NCBI GenBank assembly: GCA_013388525.1
Contig: JACAFA010000241.1
Span: 67,959-131,958 of the forward strand
Reading direction: 5' to 3'
DNA length: 64,000 nucleotides
Origin: Ignavibacteriaceae bacterium
GTDB lineage: Bacteria > Bacteroidota > Ignavibacteria > Ignavibacteriales > Ignavibacteriaceae
The position numbers and the translations under genes were made by a program. The notes under the pieces were generated by a model. That model was not told the DNA's origin. It made no database searches and was given only the letters and a program-made list of their open reading frames with translations. Position 1 is the first letter of the stretch. The number at the start of each line of letters is the position of its first letter. Below are positions 28,649 to 35,383 of the stretch, piece after piece.

Positions 28649-30277
28649 TTGAAAAAATATCTACAAAAAATATTTAAGGATGCTGTAAACCGGTTACCAT
28701 ATCTTGATGATATTGAACTGTTGTTTGACACTCCTAAAATTGAAACGCACGGTGATCTTTCTACAAACGCTGCAATGCTTCTTTCAAAAAAACTCAAAAG
28801 AAATCCGAGAGAGTTAGCTGCAGAAATAATTTCAAATCTTGAATTGGATAAAAGCGTCATCAGAAAAACAGAAATAGCAGGACCGGGTTTTATCAATTTT
28901 TATTTCAATCCTTCATTCATTGCAGAGATTATTAAAGAGATAAATAAAACTCCGGATATTTTTGGCAGTTCAAAAAAATATCGGGGTAAAAGAGCCAATG
29001 TTGAATTCGTTTCTGCTAATCCAACCGGACCATTAACTGTTGGTCACGGAAGAAATGCGGTGATTGGTGACACAGTTGCAAATCTTCTTGAGTGGATTGG
29101 TTATGAAGTAGACAGAGAATACTATTTCAACAATGCCGGAAGACAAATGCGTGTGCTTGGTGATTCAGTAAGAATCAGATATCTGAATCTTCTCGGCAGG
29201 CAAATAGATTTTCCGGAAGATTATTATCAGGGTGAATATATTATCGATATCGCAAAACGGATTAAGAATGAGTTCGGTGATAAGCTTGTTGATGAACCTG
29301 CTGAAGGAAAATTTAAGGAAATTGCGGAGGTTGAGATTTTTGATGACATAAAGAAAAGCCTGAACCACATTGGCATTAATCATAAAATTTTCTTCAATGA
29401 AAAATCGCTTTATGATGAAGGAAAGATTGATGAGCTTCTGGAAAAGTTTAAAGCTTCAGGATTATCATACGAAAAAGATGGAGCTGTCTGGTTGAAACTT
29501 TCTGAGTTGACAGGCGGGGAAGATAAAGTTATTGTAAAAGCCACTGGCGAACCAACATACCGTTTGCCTGATATTGCTTATCACATAATAAAATATAATC
29601 GCGGTTACGATCTGATGATAGATCTTTTTGGATCAGATCATACAGCTACTTATCCTGATGTGTTGGCTGGTATCAGGGCTTTGGGATATGATGATTCAAA
29701 AGTTAAAGTTCTTATTCACCAGTTTGTAACGATATTGAAAGATGGTGAAGTTGTTAAAATGTCAACACGAAAAGCTAACTATATCACATTAGATGAACTG
29801 ATCGATGAAGTTGGCAGTGATGTTGTGCGATACTTTTTTAATATGCGAAGTATTTCTTCTCATATGAATTTTGATATTGACCTTGCTAAAAAGCAGAGCG
29901 ATGAGAACCCTGTTTTTTATTTGCAATATGCACACGCAAGAATATGCTCGATTATCCGTACAGTTGAATCAGAAAATCTTAAACCTTCAACAGAAAATTT
30001 AATTCTGCTTATTGAAGACGAAGAACAGGTGCTTCTTAAAAAGCTTCATAAGTTTGAAGATGAAGTTTTATACAGTGCAGAAAATTACGAACCGCAAAAA
30101 ATCTGTGCCTATCTTGAAGACCTTGCAGCAGCATTTCATAAGTTTTATACTTTCAGAAGAATACTTGGCAGCGAAAAAAATATTGCTGAAGCAAGGTTGG
30201 CATTAGCAGTTGCTACAAGGACAGTAATTAAGAATGGACTAACTATTCTTGGTGTTTCTGCACCAGAGAAAATGTAA
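28649..30277 (+). CDS. argS: Arginyl-tRNA synthetase
   Basis: A 542-residue class I synthetase that charges tRNA-Arg. The N-terminal Add1 domain (1-110) includes ETHGDLSTNAAMLLSKKL. The HIGH motif is in VSANPTGPLTVGHGRNAV, the KMSKS-equivalent in GEVVKMSTRKANYITLDELI, and the C-terminal DALR anticodon-binding domain ends TRTVIKNGLTILGVSAPEKM. The start is TTG 28649, shortly after AGGA. It is the last host gene before the foreign block at 30397. Confidence 0.96.
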   Translation: MKKYLQKIFKDAVNRLPYLDDIELLFDTPKIETHGDLSTNAAMLLSKKLKRNPRELAAEIISNLELDKSVIRKTEIAGPGFINFYFNPSFIAEIIKEINKTPDIFGSSKKYRGKRANVEFVSANPTGPLTVGHGRNAVIGDTVANLLEWIGYEVDREYYFNNAGRQMRVLGDSVRIRYLNLLGRQIDFPEDYYQGEYIIDIAKRIKNEFGDKLVDEPAEGKFKEIAEVEIFDDIKKSLNHIGINHKIFFNEKSLYDEGKIDELLEKFKASGLSYEKDGAVWLKLSELTGGEDKVIVKATGEPTYRLPDIAYHIIKYNRGYDLMIDLFGSDHTATYPDVLAGIRALGYDDSKVKVLIHQFVTILKDGEVVKMSTRKANYITLDELIDEVGSDVVRYFFNMRSISSHMNFDIDLAKKQSDENPVFYLQYAHARICSIIRTVESENLKPSTENLILLIEDEEQVLLKKLHKFEDEVLYSAENYEPQKICAYLEDLAAAFHKFYTFRRILGSEKNIAEARLALAVATRTVIKNGLTILGVSAPEKM

Positions 30278-30343
30278 AAATCGTATGGCTTACATTTTAA
30301 AGTTACTGCTGCCGTATTGAGAAGTAAAATATTTATTATTTTT

Positions 30344-30382
30344 ATTGCGTTAATACACTTTGATTTTAGGTTATTACGCAAT
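30344..30382. repeat. Hairpin between argS and the inserted block
   Basis: ATTGCGTTAATA (30344-30355) pairs with TTATTACGCAAT (30371-30382) with one bulged base and a 15-base loop. It lies 15 bases before the left boundary of the cassette-like block. It could be the argS terminator (T-run is poor) or a recombination target. Confidence 0.4.
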
Positions 30383-30460
30383 TCGTAAAGAATTATGTTA
30401 GCGGTCAGCATAGAAAGACGACACAGTTATAAAAAGTGACAATTAAATTTAGTTTATCAA

Positions 30461-30841
30461 ATGGCAAAAGTTAACATACAACCCGACTGTGGAAACTCAC
30501 CAAGAAAAGCGTTTTTAAAAGACCTGTATATTTCATTGGCAAATGGCGACATTGATATTTTGAAAACCAACGTTCAAGACAACGTAAATTGGCAAGTTGC
30601 AGGACAATCTCAAGTGACAGGAAAGGAAAATTTTTTAAAAGAAATAGTTGAACACAAATTGTGGAAGGTTAAAGAAATTACCGTTGACACGATAATAACA
30701 CACGGACCAGATGCCTCTGTAAGTGGACAAATAAAAGCAACTGACAATTTTAAATATGCCTTTTGTGACATTTACAAATTTAAGGGTGCAGGTGGGACAA
30801 CAATAAATTCAATAATGACTTTCCTAGTTCGACAAGGTTAA
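30461..30841 (+). CDS. NTF2-like (SnoaL-type) protein
   Basis: A 126-residue protein with the NTF2-like alpha+beta barrel pattern: an N-terminal helix FLKDLYISLANGDIDILKTN, then VNWQVAGQSQVTGKENFLKE and strands ending YAFCDIYKFKGAGG. Members of this fold bind small hydrophobic ligands or act as isomerases and hydrolases; nothing here shows which. Codon use is richer in C-ending codons than argS upstream. It is the only gene of the first cassette-like unit, between GTTAGCGG at 30397 and the palindrome at 30907. Confidence 0.72.
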   Translation: MAKVNIQPDCGNSPRKAFLKDLYISLANGDIDILKTNVQDNVNWQVAGQSQVTGKENFLKEIVEHKLWKVKEITVDTIITHGPDASVSGQIKATDNFKYAFCDIYKFKGAGGTTINSIMTFLVRQG

Positions 30842-30906
30842 CAAATTTGGCGAGAAAAAAAAGTCGGATTTTATGAATCAAAAGAACTTAAGTACAGAAT
30901 GCCGAG

Positions 30907-31041
30907 CCGCTAACAGCAGCTACCCAAAAGTGGCGGTTCAGTGGTTAAATCAAGCTTTGTGCTTCTATTCATGTTCAGTGCAGATTGACAGTTTTGTGCT
31001 CCGTTCACCCGCCCGAACGCAAAGCCCGAAACCGTTAGCGG
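30907..31041. repeat. attC-like palindrome, site 2
   Basis: 135 bases from CCGCTAAC (30907-30914) to GTTAGCGG (31034-31041), which are exact reverse complements. The inner arms (CTACCCAAAAGTGGCGG on the left, CCCGCCCGAACGCAAAGCC on the right) match poorly, unlike site 3. The centre shares GTGCTTCTAT, TTGACAGT and GTGCTCCG with site 3. It ends the NTF2-like unit. An open frame that crosses it is not a gene. Confidence 0.65.
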
Positions 31042-31105
31042 TCATTGTAAACAGACAGCCCCTTCGAGGCAAAATCACAACAGACATTTTAAATTTTTTG
31101 AAAAA

Positions 31106-31140
31106 ATAGTTGCGCAATTAAATAGTTGCGCTTATATTTG
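31106..31140 (+). promoter_or_regulatory. Promoter and direct-repeat operator of the arsR-type operon
   Basis: ATAGTTGCGC occurs twice (31106-31115 and 31122-31131), 16 bases apart centre to centre. TATATTTG (31133-31140) fits the Bacteroidota -7 element, and a TTG at 31110-31112 is 20 bases upstream, fitting the -33 element. The repeats overlap the promoter, as expected for an autorepressing ArsR-family regulator encoded 48 bases downstream. Confidence 0.6.
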
Positions 31141-31165
31141 CAGCCATTTGGTAGCATAAAATAAT

Positions 31166-31203
31166 TTTATGGAATCAAGACGTGTTTATGGAATCAAGAC
31201 GTG
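31166..31203 (+). repeat. 19-bp exact tandem duplication over the arsR-type start codon
   Basis: TTTATGGAATCAAGACGTG is present twice in a row (31166-31184 and 31185-31203). It duplicates the start codon. The first ATG (31169) opens an 11-codon frame ending in TGA that overlaps the true start at 31188. Confidence 0.85.
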
Positions 31204-31514
31204 ACGTATTTCAAGCCATTGCCGACCCGACAAGACGAGCAATTATCATGCTTTTGACCGTTGGAGCTATGACACCCAATGCCATAGCAGAACACTTCGA
31301 CTCTAGCCGACAAGCCATTTCAAAACACCTGCACATACTGGCAGAATGCGAAATCGTAACACAAGAACAAAAAGGCAGAGAAATTCACTACCACTTAAAT
31401 GCTAAAAAAATGGAAGAAGTAGAAAAGTGGCTGGAGCAATTCAAACAAATGATAGCGAAGAAGTTTAATCAATTAGACAATGTATTAGAAAAACTCAAAC
31501 ACAGTAAAAAATGA
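31188..31514 (+). CDS. ArsR-family transcriptional regulator
   Basis: A 108-residue winged-helix repressor. DVFQAIADPTRRAIIMLL is the typical ArsR N-terminus of the SRPBCC-linked subgroup. The recognition helix region is IAEHFDSSRQAISKHLHIL, and the wing is EQKGREIHYHLN. No CxC metal-binding motif is present, so metal sensing is unlikely. It overlaps the next gene by 4 bases (ATGA), giving translational coupling. It probably represses its own operon through the ATAGTTGCGC repeats at 31106-31131. The upstream duplicate ATG at 31169 is out of frame. Confidence 0.9.
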   Translation: MESRRDVFQAIADPTRRAIIMLLTVGAMTPNAIAEHFDSSRQAISKHLHILAECEIVTQEQKGREIHYHLNAKKMEEVEKWLEQFKQMIAKKFNQLDNVLEKLKHSKK

Positions 31515-32494
31515 ATAAAGCCATTTTATTCAACTTTCTGGTTGACAAAGAAAACAAGCAAATCAGGGTAGATCGGTCATTCAACGCTCCCCTCGACTTA
31601 GTTTGGACGGCATGGACAGAAGCCGAAATTCTTGACCAATGGTGGGCACCCAAACCCTGGCGAGCTAAAACCAAGCACATGGACTTTCGTGTAGGTGGCT
31701 ATTGGTTGTATGCTATGGTAGGACCTGAAAACGAAAAGCATTGGTCAAGGGCAGATTATGAGAAAATAATTCCCAAACAATATTTCTCAGCTTACGATGG
31801 CTTTTGTGATGAAGTTGGAAACCTTAATACTGCTATGCCCAGAAACAAATGGGAAAACAACTTTACCGCAAATGGCGACCAAACCCTCGTAAGCATCTTA
31901 TTAACCTTTGATAGTTTAGAAGATATAGAAAAAATTATTGAAATGGGCTTCCAAGAAGGCTTCACCGCTGGACTTGAAAACCTTGACCAATACATCGCTG
32001 CACAATTTTATCTCCGCAAACAAAATAAAACAAACCATATGGCACGAGTTAGCACGTATCTCAATTTTCAAGGCAAAACAGAAGAAGCCTTTAATTTTTA
32101 CAAAAAAGTATTCAAATCTGAATTCATTAACGGTATTCAACGCTTTGGCGACTTGCCCGCAGACCCGAACCAACCTCCCATTGCCGATGCTGTGAAAAAT
32201 ATGGTTTTACACATAGAGCTACCTATCATAGGGGGACATCTGTTAATGGGAACAGATGCTCCAAAAGAAATGGGATTTACTGTTACGCAAGGCAACAATA
32301 TGCACATCCAAATCGAACCTGAATCACGAGAGGAAGCTAAGCGATTGTTTGACGAACTCTCAGTAGGCGGAAATATTGTGCAACCCATTCAAGATATGTT
32401 TTGGGGAGCGTATTACGGAAGCTTCACCGATAAGTTTGGTATCAATTGGATGATAAACTATCACGGGAATGACAATCTCCCAAAAAAAACTTAA
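31511..32494 (+). CDS. SRPBCC (AHSA1) and VOC (PhnB-like) fusion protein
   Basis: A 327-residue protein made of two domains that are usually separate. Residues 1-165 are an AHSA1-type SRPBCC domain (VDRSFNAPLDLVWTAWTEAE, LDQWWAPKPWRAKT, FRVGGYWLYAMVGPE). Residues about 177-320 are a PhnB-like VOC domain beginning MARVSTYLNFQGKTEEAFNF and ending FGINWMINYH. The linker LRKQNKTNHM contains the ATG (32039) that would normally start a free VOC protein. A TAA at 32026-32028 lies one base out of frame, so a one-base change could have fused or could split the two. Both folds bind small molecules; the substrate is unknown. Confidence 0.8.
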   Translation: MNKAILFNFLVDKENKQIRVDRSFNAPLDLVWTAWTEAEILDQWWAPKPWRAKTKHMDFRVGGYWLYAMVGPENEKHWSRADYEKIIPKQYFSAYDGFCDEVGNLNTAMPRNKWENNFTANGDQTLVSILLTFDSLEDIEKIIEMGFQEGFTAGLENLDQYIAAQFYLRKQNKTNHMARVSTYLNFQGKTEEAFNFYKKVFKSEFINGIQRFGDLPADPNQPPIADAVKNMVLHIELPIIGGHLLMGTDAPKEMGFTVTQGNNMHIQIEPESREEAKRLFDELSVGGNIVQPIQDMFWGAYYGSFTDKFGINWMINYHGNDNLPKKT

Positions 32495-32515
32495 CACAAT
32501 TAAAATTAAATAAAT

Positions 32516-32932
32516 ATGAATACAACAAAAATTACCATTAAAGCCGAAGTATTGGCTAACAGACAAAAGGTTTGGGACTACTACACCCAGCCCGAACATA
32601 TTACAAAATGGAATTTTGCAAATGATGATTGGTGTTGTCCCTCTGCTTCAAACGACTTACAAGTTGGCGGTAAATATATAGCACGAATGGAAGCCAAAGA
32701 CGGTAGTTTTGGTTTTGATTTTGAAGCAACCTATAACGAAATTGTTGAAGGTGAATATTTCACCTATACAATGCCTGACAACCGTGTGGTGAATGTAATT
32801 TTTAAAGAACTTGAGTATAGCACGGAAGTAACAGTAACTTTTGATGCAGAAACTGAAAACTCACTTGAGATGCAGCAACAAGGATGGCAATCTATTCTTA
32901 ATAACTTTAAAAAATACACCGAAGAAGCATGA
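32516..32932 (+). CDS. SRPBCC (AHSA1-type) domain protein
   Basis: A 138-residue single-domain protein of the START/Bet v1-like fold. Signature segments are KITIKAEVLANRQKVWDYYT, EHITKWNFANDDWCCPSASN and the C-terminal helix NSLEMQQQGWQSILNNFKKY. It forms a hydrophobic ligand cavity; the ligand is unknown. It overlaps the next gene by 4 bases (ATGA), so the run from arsR on is a compact operon. Confidence 0.85.
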   Translation: MNTTKITIKAEVLANRQKVWDYYTQPEHITKWNFANDDWCCPSASNDLQVGGKYIARMEAKDGSFGFDFEATYNEIVEGEYFTYTMPDNRVVNVIFKELEYSTEVTVTFDAETENSLEMQQQGWQSILNNFKKYTEEA

Positions 32933-33318
32933 TGGATAGTAATGCCAAAGAAATCCGGTCTGTTATTGACCATTGGGTTAAATCCATACAACAGAAAAAT
33001 ATGGATGGAATTCTTCAAAACCACTCACCAGATATTCTCATGTTTGATGTACCTGTTCCCTTGCAATCAAAAGGCTTTAATGAATACAGGGAAACATGGA
33101 ATTTGTTTTTTCAATACAGCAGCGGAGGAAAAGAATCATTTCAATTGGAAGAATTGCAAATTACGGCAAGCGATACAGTAGCTTTTTGTACCGCACTTAT
33201 AAAACTATCCAATAGCGCTAAGCCACAATGCAGACTTACCATCGGGCTTAAGAAAATGAATAATCAATGGATGATTGTCCATGAACATCATTCCGCACCA
33301 CATGAACTAAGTGAATAA
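32929..33318 (+). CDS. SnoaL/NTF2-like protein
   Basis: A 129-residue NTF2-like protein. The typical opening is IRSVIDHWVKSIQQKNMDGI, with FDVPVPLQSKGFNEYRETWN and a terminal WMIVHEHHSAPHEL, which fits the YybH/SgcJ-like subgroup often annotated as ketosteroid isomerase-like. It is coupled by a 4-base overlap to the SRPBCC gene upstream. Confidence 0.85.
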   Translation: MMDSNAKEIRSVIDHWVKSIQQKNMDGILQNHSPDILMFDVPVPLQSKGFNEYRETWNLFFQYSSGGKESFQLEELQITASDTVAFCTALIKLSNSAKPQCRLTIGLKKMNNQWMIVHEHHSAPHELSE

Positions 33319-33335
33319 CTAAAAAGGAAAATACT

Positions 33336-33881
33336 ATGCAAAAATCAATCACAACTTGTTTGACATTCTCGAAAAACGCAGAAGAAGCGATTCGCTTTTA
33401 TATTGAAATTTTCAACCGGGCTTTTGGCTCATCAAAAGGCGAATCAAAAATTCTTAAAATCACTCACTTTGGGGAAGATGAATTAAAAGACCTGCTAAAT
33501 GTGCCGGATGTACCGAAAGACATGATGCCCGGACCAGTTGGTTCAGTAAAAACGATTCGTTTTCTACTCAACGGTCAAGAATTCATAGCTATAAATGGCG
33601 GTGGCTATTTTGGAAAGTTTCATGAAAGCATGTCGCTTTATGTATGCTGCGATAATCAACAACAGATAGACACATTGTATGATGCACTTGCAGTAAACGG
33701 TGAGTTGCAGCCCTGTGGTTGGGTAAAAGACAGATTTGGTATTTCATGGCAAATTACACCCAACTTCCTGTGGGACATGGACGAAGATGATGATAAAATC
33801 CGTTCTCAAAAAGTAATGAAAGCTTTATATGGCATGAACAAAATTAACATTGAAAAAATTAAGGAAGTTTGGAACTCATAA
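33336..33881 (+). CDS. VOC-superfamily protein (PhnB/3-dmu-9_3-mt type)
   Basis: A 181-residue protein. The opening ITTCLTFSKNAEEAIRFYIE, the GQEFIAINGGGYFGKFHESM segment and GWVKDRFGISWQITPNFLWD identify the PhnB-like VOC family, often labelled 3-demethylubiquinone-9 3-methyltransferase domain although methyltransferase activity is not expected. It ends the arsR-type operon; the palindrome at 33926 follows. Confidence 0.85.
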   Translation: MQKSITTCLTFSKNAEEAIRFYIEIFNRAFGSSKGESKILKITHFGEDELKDLLNVPDVPKDMMPGPVGSVKTIRFLLNGQEFIAINGGGYFGKFHESMSLYVCCDNQQQIDTLYDALAVNGELQPCGWVKDRFGISWQITPNFLWDMDEDDDKIRSQKVMKALYGMNKINIEKIKEVWNS

Positions 33882-33925
33882 TACATTGATTGAAAGTAAA
33901 ACAAATTGAAAAGAAGAACAACGAA

Positions 33926-34059
33926 CCGCTAACAACGTGTTGCCGCAATTGGCAGTGACGTGCAAAATTGAAGCTGAGTGCTACTATCAAACTTTTGTGC
34001 AGGTTGACAGTGAGGTGCTCCGAAATCGCCAACTGCGGCAACACGCAAACCGTTAGCAG
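33926..34059. repeat. attC-like palindrome, site 3
   Basis: 134 bases from CCGCTAAC (33926-33933) to GTTAGCAG (34052-34059). Inner arms CGTGTTGCCGCAATTGGC (33936-33953) and GCCAACTGCGGCAACACG (34028-34045) pair at 17 of 18 positions. The unpaired centre has GTGCTACTAT, TTGACAGT and GTGCTCCG, shared with site 2. The size and two-level arms resemble integron attC sites, although the centre is more conserved than usual for attC. Confidence 0.7.
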
Positions 34060-34134
34060 TCATTGCAGGACATCGCACCAAAAAGAATTTGTGGACAGAA
34101 ATGAAACTGACTATTCAAGTAAAAAAGTGAAAAT

Positions 34135-34560
34135 ATGAACCTAGAAGAGCAAACAAAAAAATACATTGCCAGTTTACCCGAACCCAAACGTTCAGACATT
34201 GAAGTTTTGCACAAACACATACTGAAAGTATTGCCAAAATGTAAATTATGGTTCTTAGACGGTAAAGACGAGAAAGGAAAAATTGTTTCCAATCCTCAAA
34301 TAGGGTATGGACTTCAAACCATAAAATATGCAGATGGAAAAACTAAAGAATTTTATCAAATTGGCATTAGTGCAAATACAACTGGAATCTCTGTCTATAT
34401 CCTTGGTATCAATGATAAGACATACTTAGCTAAAACGTTTGGAAAAAAAATAGGCATGGCGAGCGTGAGTGGATATTGCATTAAGTTCAAAACTTTAAAA
34501 GATATAAACGTTGATATACTTGAAGCGGCAATACGAGATGGTGTTGAGAAGACAACATAA
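34135..34560 (+). CDS. DUF1801-family protein
   Basis: A 141-residue protein of the DUF1801 (YdhG-like) family. The N-terminal helix pair KKYIASLPEPKRSDIEVLHK is followed by WFLDGKDEKGKIVSNPQIGY and a strand-rich end with FYQIGISANTTGISVYILGI. No biochemical function is established for the family. It is the sole gene of the third cassette-like unit and is followed by a truncated palindrome at 34625. Confidence 0.8.
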   Translation: MNLEEQTKKYIASLPEPKRSDIEVLHKHILKVLPKCKLWFLDGKDEKGKIVSNPQIGYGLQTIKYADGKTKEFYQIGISANTTGISVYILGINDKTYLAKTFGKKIGMASVSGYCIKFKTLKDINVDILEAAIRDGVEKTT

Positions 34561-34624
34561 TCGACAATGATTAAGTAAGTGTATGAAAATGGCAAGCAAT
34601 GACAATAAACGAAAAAACAACGAA

Positions 34625-34653
34625 CCGCCAACACGGGTTTTGCGTCAGGCGGG
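34625..34653. repeat. Truncated attC-like half site, site 4
   Basis: CCGCCAACACGGG and the following TTTTGCGTCAGGCGGG look like the left arm of a site such as those at 30907 and 33926, including the preceding ACGAA. The centre and right arm are missing, and host sequence leading to the comF-type gene begins at about 34654. It marks the right edge of the foreign block. Confidence 0.55.
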
Positions 34654-34699
34654 ATAATGTATAACCTTGGAGTTTCTGCAACTGAGCAAATGCAATCAT

Positions 34700-35383
34700 T
34701 TAAAAATCTGCAATACCAACCGAACAGGCATAAACTGTTTTTGCTCCTCCGTTAATCAGAGCTTTACCACATTCCTGAATTGTAGCACCGGTCGTACAAA
34801 CATCATCTACTACAAGGATATTTTTGCCGGTCATTTTTTTTGCGTCCGTGACTTTAAATGCATCTGCAACGTTCTCAGATCTTTGTTTCATATTCAGCTT
34901 CGTCTGGGATTCAGTGTGCCTTATTCTTTTAATCAATTTGGTTGAATAAGGAATGTTGAGCGATTCGCTCAATCCTTTAGCTATGTAATCGGATTGGTTG
35001 TAGCCCCGTTCAACTTTTTTAAGATGATGAATAGGAACAGGGACAATTAAGTCAACTTGCCAGTTACGGTTTTTGATTCCTTCGGAAAGAATCTCACCTA
35101 AATACATTCCCAGCTTGAACTTTTTCTGATATTTTAAAGCGTGAATAATTTGTTGTAAAGTTTTATCAGTTTCAAAAACAAATCTTGAGTAAAAATCTTT
35201 AATGACTTTTGATGAGGAGAAATTTCTTTCATATTCATCTTCGAGTCTTATTTCGTCAGCAATTAAAATACTGCTTAGACAATCTATACAGACAGGATTT
35301 TCATCAGGTAATAACTTTTTGTTGCAGCCGGGACAGAATCGCGGCAGGAAAAAATCGAATATATAATTCACTGAAAAATTCAT
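34700..35383 (-). CDS. comF: ComF-family phosphoribosyltransferase-like protein
   Basis: A 227-residue protein. An N-terminal zinc-ribbon has Cys pairs in FCPGCNKKLLPDENPVCIDC. The PRT core follows, with LIVPVPIHHLKKVERGYNQS and the PRPP loop NILVVDDVCTTGATIQECGK. ComFC-type proteins are needed for DNA uptake in transformable bacteria, but the family is also found widely in species not known to be competent. Codon use is like the host genes, so it lies outside the foreign block. Confidence 0.9.
   Translation of the reverse strand: MNFSVNYIFDFFLPRFCPGCNKKLLPDENPVCIDCLSSILIADEIRLEDEYERNFSSSKVIKDFYSRFVFETDKTLQQIIHALKYQKKFKLGMYLGEILSEGIKNRNWQVDLIVPVPIHHLKKVERGYNQSDYIAKGLSESLNIPYSTKLIKRIRHTESQTKLNMKQRSENVADAFKVTDAKKMTGKNILVVDDVCTTGATIQECGKALINGGAKTVYACSVGIADF

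Follow-up and report, generated by a model that had tools for sequence, protein, structure and literature searches.

A stranded, integrase-less fragment of an integron-like cassette system within the 3' end of argS in an Ignavibacteriaceae bacterium

A 64,000-nucleotide stretch of an Ignavibacteriaceae bacterium genome (assembly GCA_013388525.1, contig JACAFA010000241.1, positions 67,959 to 131,958; the window, whose own numbering is used throughout) carries, between argS and a comF-type gene, seven genes that all run in the same direction and are divided into three units by long imperfect palindromes. The original prediction, made from the letters alone, took this block for the integrase-less cassette array of an integron-like or still unnamed Bacteroidota system, which raises the question of what system the block belongs to and what moves its units. 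We find that the block is a stranded fragment, without an integrase, of an integron-like cassette system; with a probability of roughly 0.84, that system is widespread in Bacteroidota and is run by a tyrosine recombinase other than IntI, here called type A. Positions 30397-34656 comprise three cassettes, in each of which a gene block precedes a hairpin site of about 138 bp, the third site being truncated:

30397 to 31033, + strand: cassette 1, with 5' arm GTTAGCGGTCAGCAT, a gene at 30461-30841 (weakly SnoaL/NTF2-like), a 3' arm and an attC-like site
30904 to 31042, + strand: attC-like site 1, a hybrid body with arms of different types (AAC at 30912, GTT at 31034)
31034 to 34051, + strand: cassette 2, five genes and site 2
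Genes of cassette 2 by Pfam, + strand: ArsR, 31182-31514; AHSA1-VOC, 31511-32494; AHSA1, 32516-32932; SnoaL_3, 32929-33318; VOC-type, 33336-33881
33923 to 34060, + strand: attC-like site 2, with matched arms (AAC at 33931, GTT at 34052)
34052 to 34656, + strand: cassette 3, with a gene at 34135-34560 (DUF1801 according to the original prediction; no Pfam match) and truncated site 3
34622 to 34656, + strand: attC-like site 3, left arm only (CCGCCAAC ACGGGTTTTGCGTCAGGCGGG; 11.4 bits, E = 1)

The architecture first described from the letters is borne out: both full palindromes, the left edge GTTAGCGGTCA at 30397, the right half-site CCGCCAACA ending at 34633, and seven codirectional genes in three units are all present. 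Each unit starts with GTT and an arm that pairs with the arm just 5' of its own site; GTTAGCGGTCAGCAT pairs with the reverse complement GTTAGCGGCTCGGCAT in unit 1, GTTAGCGGTCATTGT with the reverse complement GTTAGCGGTTCGTTGT in unit 2 and, as read from the sequence, GTTAGCAGTCATTGC with the reverse complement GTTGGCGGTTCGTTGT in unit 3. Most of the proposed gene families were recovered by Pfam (AHSA1/SRPBCC, VOC-type, SnoaL and ArsR), with gene 1 giving a weak SnoaL_2 match only (20.2 bits against a cut-off of 27); the assignment to DUF1801 was not, as no block protein matched it at E<=0.001. C-ending codons are more frequent, as had been claimed, by a modest amount (mean 0.195 in the seven block genes versus 0.145 in seven neighbours). 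Homologues of the cassette genes lie mostly outside arrays: among loci L150-L179 (n = 30), 27 came from gene matches, one of which (L157) had a site at E<0.1, and the other three (L168, L171 and L179) were matches to palindrome 2 itself. A perfect 19-bp tandem repeat, TTTATGGAATCAAGACGTG, occupies 31166-31203 at the start of the ArsR gene and gives it two possible start positions.

A covariance model (R1) was trained on 34 sites, namely palindrome 2 and 33 others from outside the window. Compensatory changes were seen in 15 of the 16 inner-stem pairs of the alignment, and palindrome 2 (33923-34060) folded well beyond 200 shuffled sequences (z of -3.0 for the top and -4.7 for the bottom strand). 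On the window, R1 returned palindrome 2, a member of the training set, at 136 bits and palindrome 1 (30904-31042), which lies outside it, at 87.5 bits (E = 1.1e-17); the next-best matches were one elsewhere in the window, at 14.2 bits, and the right half-site (34622-34778), at 11.4 bits (E = 1). Palindrome 1 is, by eye, a hybrid with a left arm of GCAGCTACCC type and a right arm of CCCGCCCGAACGCAAAGCCCG type, and hybrid bodies of this kind make up some 9-10 of 106 sites judged by eye, roughly a tenth. A search against Rfam gave a single weak match (E = 1.6).

A check proposed with the original prediction was whether the palindromes recur in Bacteroidota, and they do so on a large scale. When a genome collection was scanned with the conserved-centre pattern, 118 of the 119 stretches among the matches listed were Bacteroidota in the wide sense by record title, the other being labelled Patescibacteria; Chlorobi, Ignavibacteria and Balneola are counted within Bacteroidota here, as in GTDB. 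R1, applied to Bacteroidota and to the plasmid and viral loci fetched, gave 296 matches in 98 fetched loci at E<=0.01, and another 28 loci yielded 52 at E<=0.001. Among 198 Bacteroidota genomes sampled, at least 98 (about half) carried sites at E<=1e-6, a count made with stricter filters and with the best 16 candidates at most scored per genome. Judged by these scans, the site family is large and almost exclusive to Bacteroidota. Dense arrays exist, with ten sites in 8 kb at L057 and again ten in 8 kb at L073; in the complete genome SSA2 (G522), C1:3486000-3983000 holds at least 150 sites in an array of about 500 kb (the best 150 matches were scored and part of them listed), all listed sites lying on one strand. 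The typical body is about 118 bp, framed by AAC and GTT.

Three further observations concern the sites themselves. At L020, L044, L075, L101 and L115 the left side of sites reads GGGCACACACA instead of a unit arm, which possibly marks another array edge or an element end. The putative viral contigs L001-L003 (IMG/VR) carry family sites, and L001 also has, by eye, sites of GCTTATAAC...GTTATAAGC type, and phages may carry such cassettes. In a plasmid search, 47 Acinetobacter records matched weakly, the best of them at E about 0.01, and one was inspected.

The sequence around these sites follows a common cassette logic. Over 118 cassette intervals of 150-1600 bp, the arm after a site matched the arm before the next site as its complement at 6.03 of 8 bases, compared with 3.11 within one site, 3.00 for the next site but one and 2.95 for random pairs; arm and strand counts were made on 264 of the 296 and 45 of the 52 R1 matches plus the two window sites, leaving out matches cut by contig ends, weaker matches and the viral loci L001 and L002 (no mixed strands by eye). 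Since pairing is specific to the unit, the full hairpin is completed only when a unit closes on itself. By predicted stability, the self-closed hairpin surpassed the linear form in 143 of 163 cases, and in 141 of 163 the bottom strand surpassed the top one. Sites of both orientations were mixed in none of 85 multi-site loci, and in 141 of 158 intervals the longest open reading frame was on the same strand as the site; a palindromic site thus follows each cassette gene, with a single strand used along the array, as in integrons. The expectation that each site would follow a different gene is also borne out, the 242 genes preceding sites falling into 229 clusters.

The boundaries of a cassette can be read from duplicates. 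Two cassettes of SSA2 each have a second copy some 50 kb away; the copies align over 803 bp (98.8%) and 587 bp (99.3%), from the 5' GTT across the gene and the following site up to the next GTT, the flanks being unrelated. Boundaries at GTT are accordingly seen in these two pairs, and in the gene tet(X3) in two contexts (see below). One cassette of L057 (Pelobium) has the same gene and arms (85%) as one of L086 (a Flavobacteriales assembly), and the AAC-GTT body is of another type, for which reason bodies seem to be exchanged between cassettes. The doubts that the original prediction had raised about a textbook integron can now be sorted: non-canonical core boxes (RYYYAAC in 19 and GTTRRRY in 12 of 283 sites with AAC and GTT in place) and a conserved centre are both the rule in this family, and cassettes with several genes are found at other loci, as in the first unit (about 4.9 kb) of the relative G042. 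An earlier idea, taken from loci with IS91-type elements, placed the body ahead of the gene and the entry of cassettes on the AAC side; it was dropped because of the gene-then-site order in type A arrays and in the duplicated SSA2 cassettes.

Tyrosine recombinases near the arrays are of two sorts, type A and type B. Type A proteins, often 350-375 amino acids long with an N-terminal extension of about 75 residues, lie upstream of arrays. Among the best 30 type A loci of 148 genomes, 11 had a site at E<1e-5 within about 1.5 kb, and in all 11 the site lay downstream of the gene, in the same orientation; none of seven other Xer-type loci had a site at E<0.05. A type A match was also present in 11 of the 119 stretches among the matches listed, ten with the same polarity and one (L021) divergent, so that, taking both samples together, 21 of 22 loci have type A upstream of the array and codirectional with it. 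Sites were found in 42 of 50 genomes with a strong type A match and in 31 of 98 others (Fisher p = 1.1e-9). All residues of the catalytic RKHRHY set are present in 21 of 22 type A proteins, and a predicted type A structure (predicted local distance difference test 86, predicted template modelling score 0.58) found XerA (5hxy) as its best Foldseek match, with IntI (2a3v) close behind. Recurrence of the sites, diversity of the genes and a tyrosine recombinase nearby together support the original assignment to an integron-like or unnamed Bacteroidota system, and some of the arrays do lie next to a recombinase of the kind named in its proposed check.

Behind the type A gene lies a candidate counterpart of attI: a GTT 44-324 bp past the stop codon, and next to it an arm complementary to that of the first cassette. 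Pairing reached at least 8 of 10 bases in 20 of 25 loci (three of the 25 have only weak sites, E 0.004-0.05), compared with 16 of 600 controls using the arms of other loci. The sequence before this GTT is weakly conserved, of TATA type and often after a small hairpin; in G042 and G064, from the host's order, the pairing is present and the attI-like sequences are nearly the same. The system therefore has an attI-like site adjacent to the recombinase gene (20 of 25 loci, G042 and G064), which neither the window nor SSA2 shows. The idea that the left edge of the window block is an attI found no support, as the attI weight matrix did not pick it out (rank 264 among 2415 GTTs). It does have the hairpin spacing of attI-like sites, with a 5-bp stem, yet 5.6% of background GTTs reach the same, and 9 of 23 attI-like sites are without such a stem. 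Six type A/B queries gave no match in the 64-kb window at E<1e-5. As two full sites and one truncated site are left, and neither a recombinase within 64 kb nor a recognisable attI was found, the window copy is probably immobile unless served in trans. With two full sites by R1 and no type A/B match in 64 kb, the window resembles a CALIN (cluster of attC sites lacking integrase, defined by at least two attC sites with no integrase nearby), and differs from it in that its sites belong to the new family.

An additional domain around patch III defines the integron integrase IntI, according to the part of the source consulted (PMC9668308), and the type A/B recombinases do not have this insertion. 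All six type A/B proteins matched TIGR02249 at 166-198 bits, below the cut-off of 265, and in two stretches; residues 182-218 of 2a3v were unaligned in the type B protein of L021; and the median box spacing was 56 amino acids in type A (measurable in 17 of 38) versus 98 in IntI (27 of 30). In a tree that used ten of 30 IntI rows and from which duplicates were dropped, IntI formed a separate clade (support 100/99). With archaeal XerA/Xer proteins the recombinases share their best NCBIfam model, NF040815 (221 bits for L183, cut-off 220; the other proteins tried fell below the cut-off), and their best Foldseek match; unlike them, type A genes head cassette arrays and many have the N-terminal extension, and six of seven other Xer-type proteins fall in a branch separate from type A.

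The system shares with integrons (IntI/attI/attC, including sedentary chromosomal superintegrons) an integrase, an adjacent attI-like site and a one-directional array of diverse cassettes, together with a palindromic site after each gene, GTT boundaries, complementary cassette ends and a bottom strand that is predicted to be the more stable. It is unlike them in a recombinase that is without the IntI-specific insertion and whose gene usually precedes the array codirectionally, the attI-like site coming after its stop codon; in a core that is mostly not RYYYAAC/GTTRRRY and arms of 12-15 nt that are specific to the unit; and in having a few body types, distinguished by eye, with a conserved centre common across the phylum and bodies that seem swapped. 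The system works like an integron, with a non-IntI integrase, and is not an integron in the strict sense, since its core boxes are different and the integrase is without the insertion that defines IntI.

The sequences show the units, the complementarity of their arms, the boundaries of duplicated cassettes, and the location and co-occurrence of type A; the role of type A as the recombinase, the folding of a single strand and the chemistry are proposed from them. A cassette consists of one gene or a small number of genes and, after these, a body of typically about 118 bp between AAC and GTT; its 5' end and 3' flank are complementary over about 12-15 nt, such that the full hairpin forms only in the circle. 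Type A, with a core like that of XerA and IntI and without the IntI insertion, may recombine the folded strand, probably the bottom one, at GTT. New cassettes would enter at the attI-like site 44-324 bp past the type A stop codon, or at other cassette sites, and bodies would, it seems, also be exchanged between cassettes.

A number of results weigh against this reading. Palindrome 1 of the window folds no better than shuffled sequence (z of -0.36 and -0.25); the poor folding is explained by the hybrid body, whose two arms come from different body types. Of the 25 attI-like loci, five fell below 8 of 10 paired bases, and of these three fit with a one-base shift by eye and two, L080 and L218, do not. 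Behind the type A gene of SSA2, the largest array, no attI-like arm pairing with the first found site was detected, and type A is divergent from the sites in L021 and in Thermaurantimonas (G526/L183). No site at E<1e-5 was present in the roughly 1.5 kb fetched for 19 of the 30 best type A loci, at E<=1e-6 sites are missing from eight of 50 type A genomes, and sites do occur in 31 of 98 genomes that have no strong type A match. Moreover, type A comprises several clades in the tree rather than one supported clade, and the body swap between L057 and L086 is not explained by a crossover at GTT only.

If the cassettes were instead those of ordinary integrons, moved in trans by the host's IntI with the type A genes as bystanders, IntI should be at hand, and it is: 48 of 116 genomes of the host's order, G042 included, have an IntI above the TIGR02249 cut-off, and IntI1 is described, in the portion of the source available, as recombining phage attC sites, one of them from a Polaribacter phage (PMC9892861). 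We consider this explanation unlikely, as none of 30 IntI loci (105 kb) had an R1 site at E<0.1, type A precedes arrays with near-fixed polarity and an attI-like end, and canonical core boxes are rare; a direct role of IntI is not supported. The presence of genuine IntI in these 48 genomes does mean that two integron-like systems exist side by side in the host's order.

It is less probable still that an IS91-family (HUH) element with its own type B recombinase makes and moves the units, as a rolling-circle transposon using the hairpins. Operons of an IS91-like transposase and type B (about 270-330 amino acids) do adjoin sites in L005 (1020-3303), L021 (5528-7807), L055, L181 and L190, as judged from annotation and by eye, and in the clearest examples GTTGAACGRAACC and GGTTYAGTTCAAC form their boundaries; these operons look like elements inserting at family sites. 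The element resembles one more insertion between sites, and eight of the 119 stretches among the matches listed had a match closer to type B than to type A. The operons of Petrimonas L182, L189 and L197 had no site at E<0.05 nearby (that of L182 being a type B and IS91-like transposase operon by Pfam), and Pfam found no transposase, of the IS91-family Y2/HUH type or other, among the seven block genes. A third account, in which the palindromes are passive repeats (terminators, or akin to miniature inverted-repeat transposable elements or repetitive extragenic palindromes) and the block arrived as one integrative element at the 3' end of argS, seems to us very improbable. It would fit the position of the palindromes after genes, the duplication of the argS tail across the block, and the unrelated insert of about 1 kb with an argS tail copy in L139; it leaves unexplained the unit-specific arms, the duplicates ending at GTT, the one-strand arrays and the attI-like pairing. 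A single integrative event may nonetheless be how the fragment came to lie within argS.

The place of insertion could be defined from the flanks:

28649 to 30277, + strand: argS (Pfam), the host gene with the insertion in its 3' end; argS and comF stand tail to tail in most relatives
30248 to 30277, + strand: left copy of the argS tail, identical to 34666-34695 at 25 of 30 positions
30278 to 30396, + strand: AT-rich left spacer preceding cassette 1, with hairpin TTACGCAATTCGTAA ending 8 bp before GTT
34657 to 34699, + strand: argS tail copy adjoining comF, aligning with the relative L131
34700 to 35383, - strand: comF-type gene, the right flank

The block separates the argS stop codon (30277) from comF by 4.4 kb, and the empty junction expected in relatives was found: comF lies at most about 130 bp from argS in 17 of 23 fetched relative loci. 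The closest ArgS relatives among the genomes compared, G042 and G044 (81%), are in the order of an Ignavibacterium genome. At its right edge the truncated site leads into another copy of the argS tail, which is present on both sides of the block; from 34657 to comF the sequence aligns with the argS tail and comF junction of L131, the alignment of 34631-34700 scoring 21 against a maximum of 15 in 500 shuffles. On this alignment, the right-hand copy (34657-34699) is apparently the ancestral one. The block sits within the 3' end of argS and not in a neutral spacer. At the same place in L139 there is an unrelated insert of about 1 kb, with a gene that is Fic-like by eye and an argS tail copy, for which reason the 3' end of argS is apparently a hotspot for insertions within the order of the host. 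Three corrections to the first description of the locus can be made: the recombinase of the system is not IntI, as judged by the defining insertion, its sites can be hybrid, and the block lies in the 3' end of argS.

Elsewhere in the family the cargo includes resistance genes. On a Myroides plasmid, genes for GNAT, OXA and MYO-1 are each followed by an R1 site, and aadS comes after the last R1 site and ends at an IS91-type element. On the Acinetobacter plasmid pAI01, the 'xerD' that precedes tet(X3) shares 67.7% identity with the type A of L226 across 201 aligned positions and is interrupted by IS26; by sequence identity, this 'xerD' is a member of the type A family. The tet(X3) cassette begins with GTTATGTGCCATTTTTGA after an attI-like end in pAI01, and has the same start after an attC-like site in Empedobacter; it starts at GTT and is followed, by eye, by the left part of a family site, its arms pairing only in part (6 of 10). 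The published xerD-tet(X3) module is alike in these two features, a xerD-like fragment close to a site-linked type A and a tet(X3) starting at GTT, and is unlike in having been presented as xerD next to insertion sequences; the terms 'integron' and 'attC' are absent from the accessible part of that paper (PMC9784759). Among 86 cassette proteins, chosen from the first 110 of the 229 clusters, 20 PADLOC families were matched, some by the same protein, giving several candidate defence proteins.

These results bear on how gene cassettes are gathered across a whole phylum. In the excerpt consulted, an IntegronFinder 2.0 survey lists one complete Bacteroidetes integron (Salinibacter), besides those of Chlorobi and Ignavibacteriae (PMC9024848); set against sites in about half of 198 species, this suggests that a large cassette reservoir has been missed. 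Titles and abstracts searched, with preprints and most subscription journals outside the scope, gave no description of this cassette system. We lean towards the view that Bacteroidota harbour a second kind of integron, independent of IntI, whose integrase lacks the domain supposed essential for hairpin recombination, whose capture site lies behind its own gene, and whose arrays reach up to about 500 kb with phylum-wide exchange of bodies, and that this has been the source of mobilised tet(X3), OXA beta-lactamase, MYO-1 and aadS. Should type A act on hairpins even though it lacks the IntI insertion, the need for that domain in integron recombination becomes testable. The occurrence of resistance genes (OXA, MYO-1, aadS and tet(X3)) and candidate defence proteins as cassettes suggests a route for their spread.

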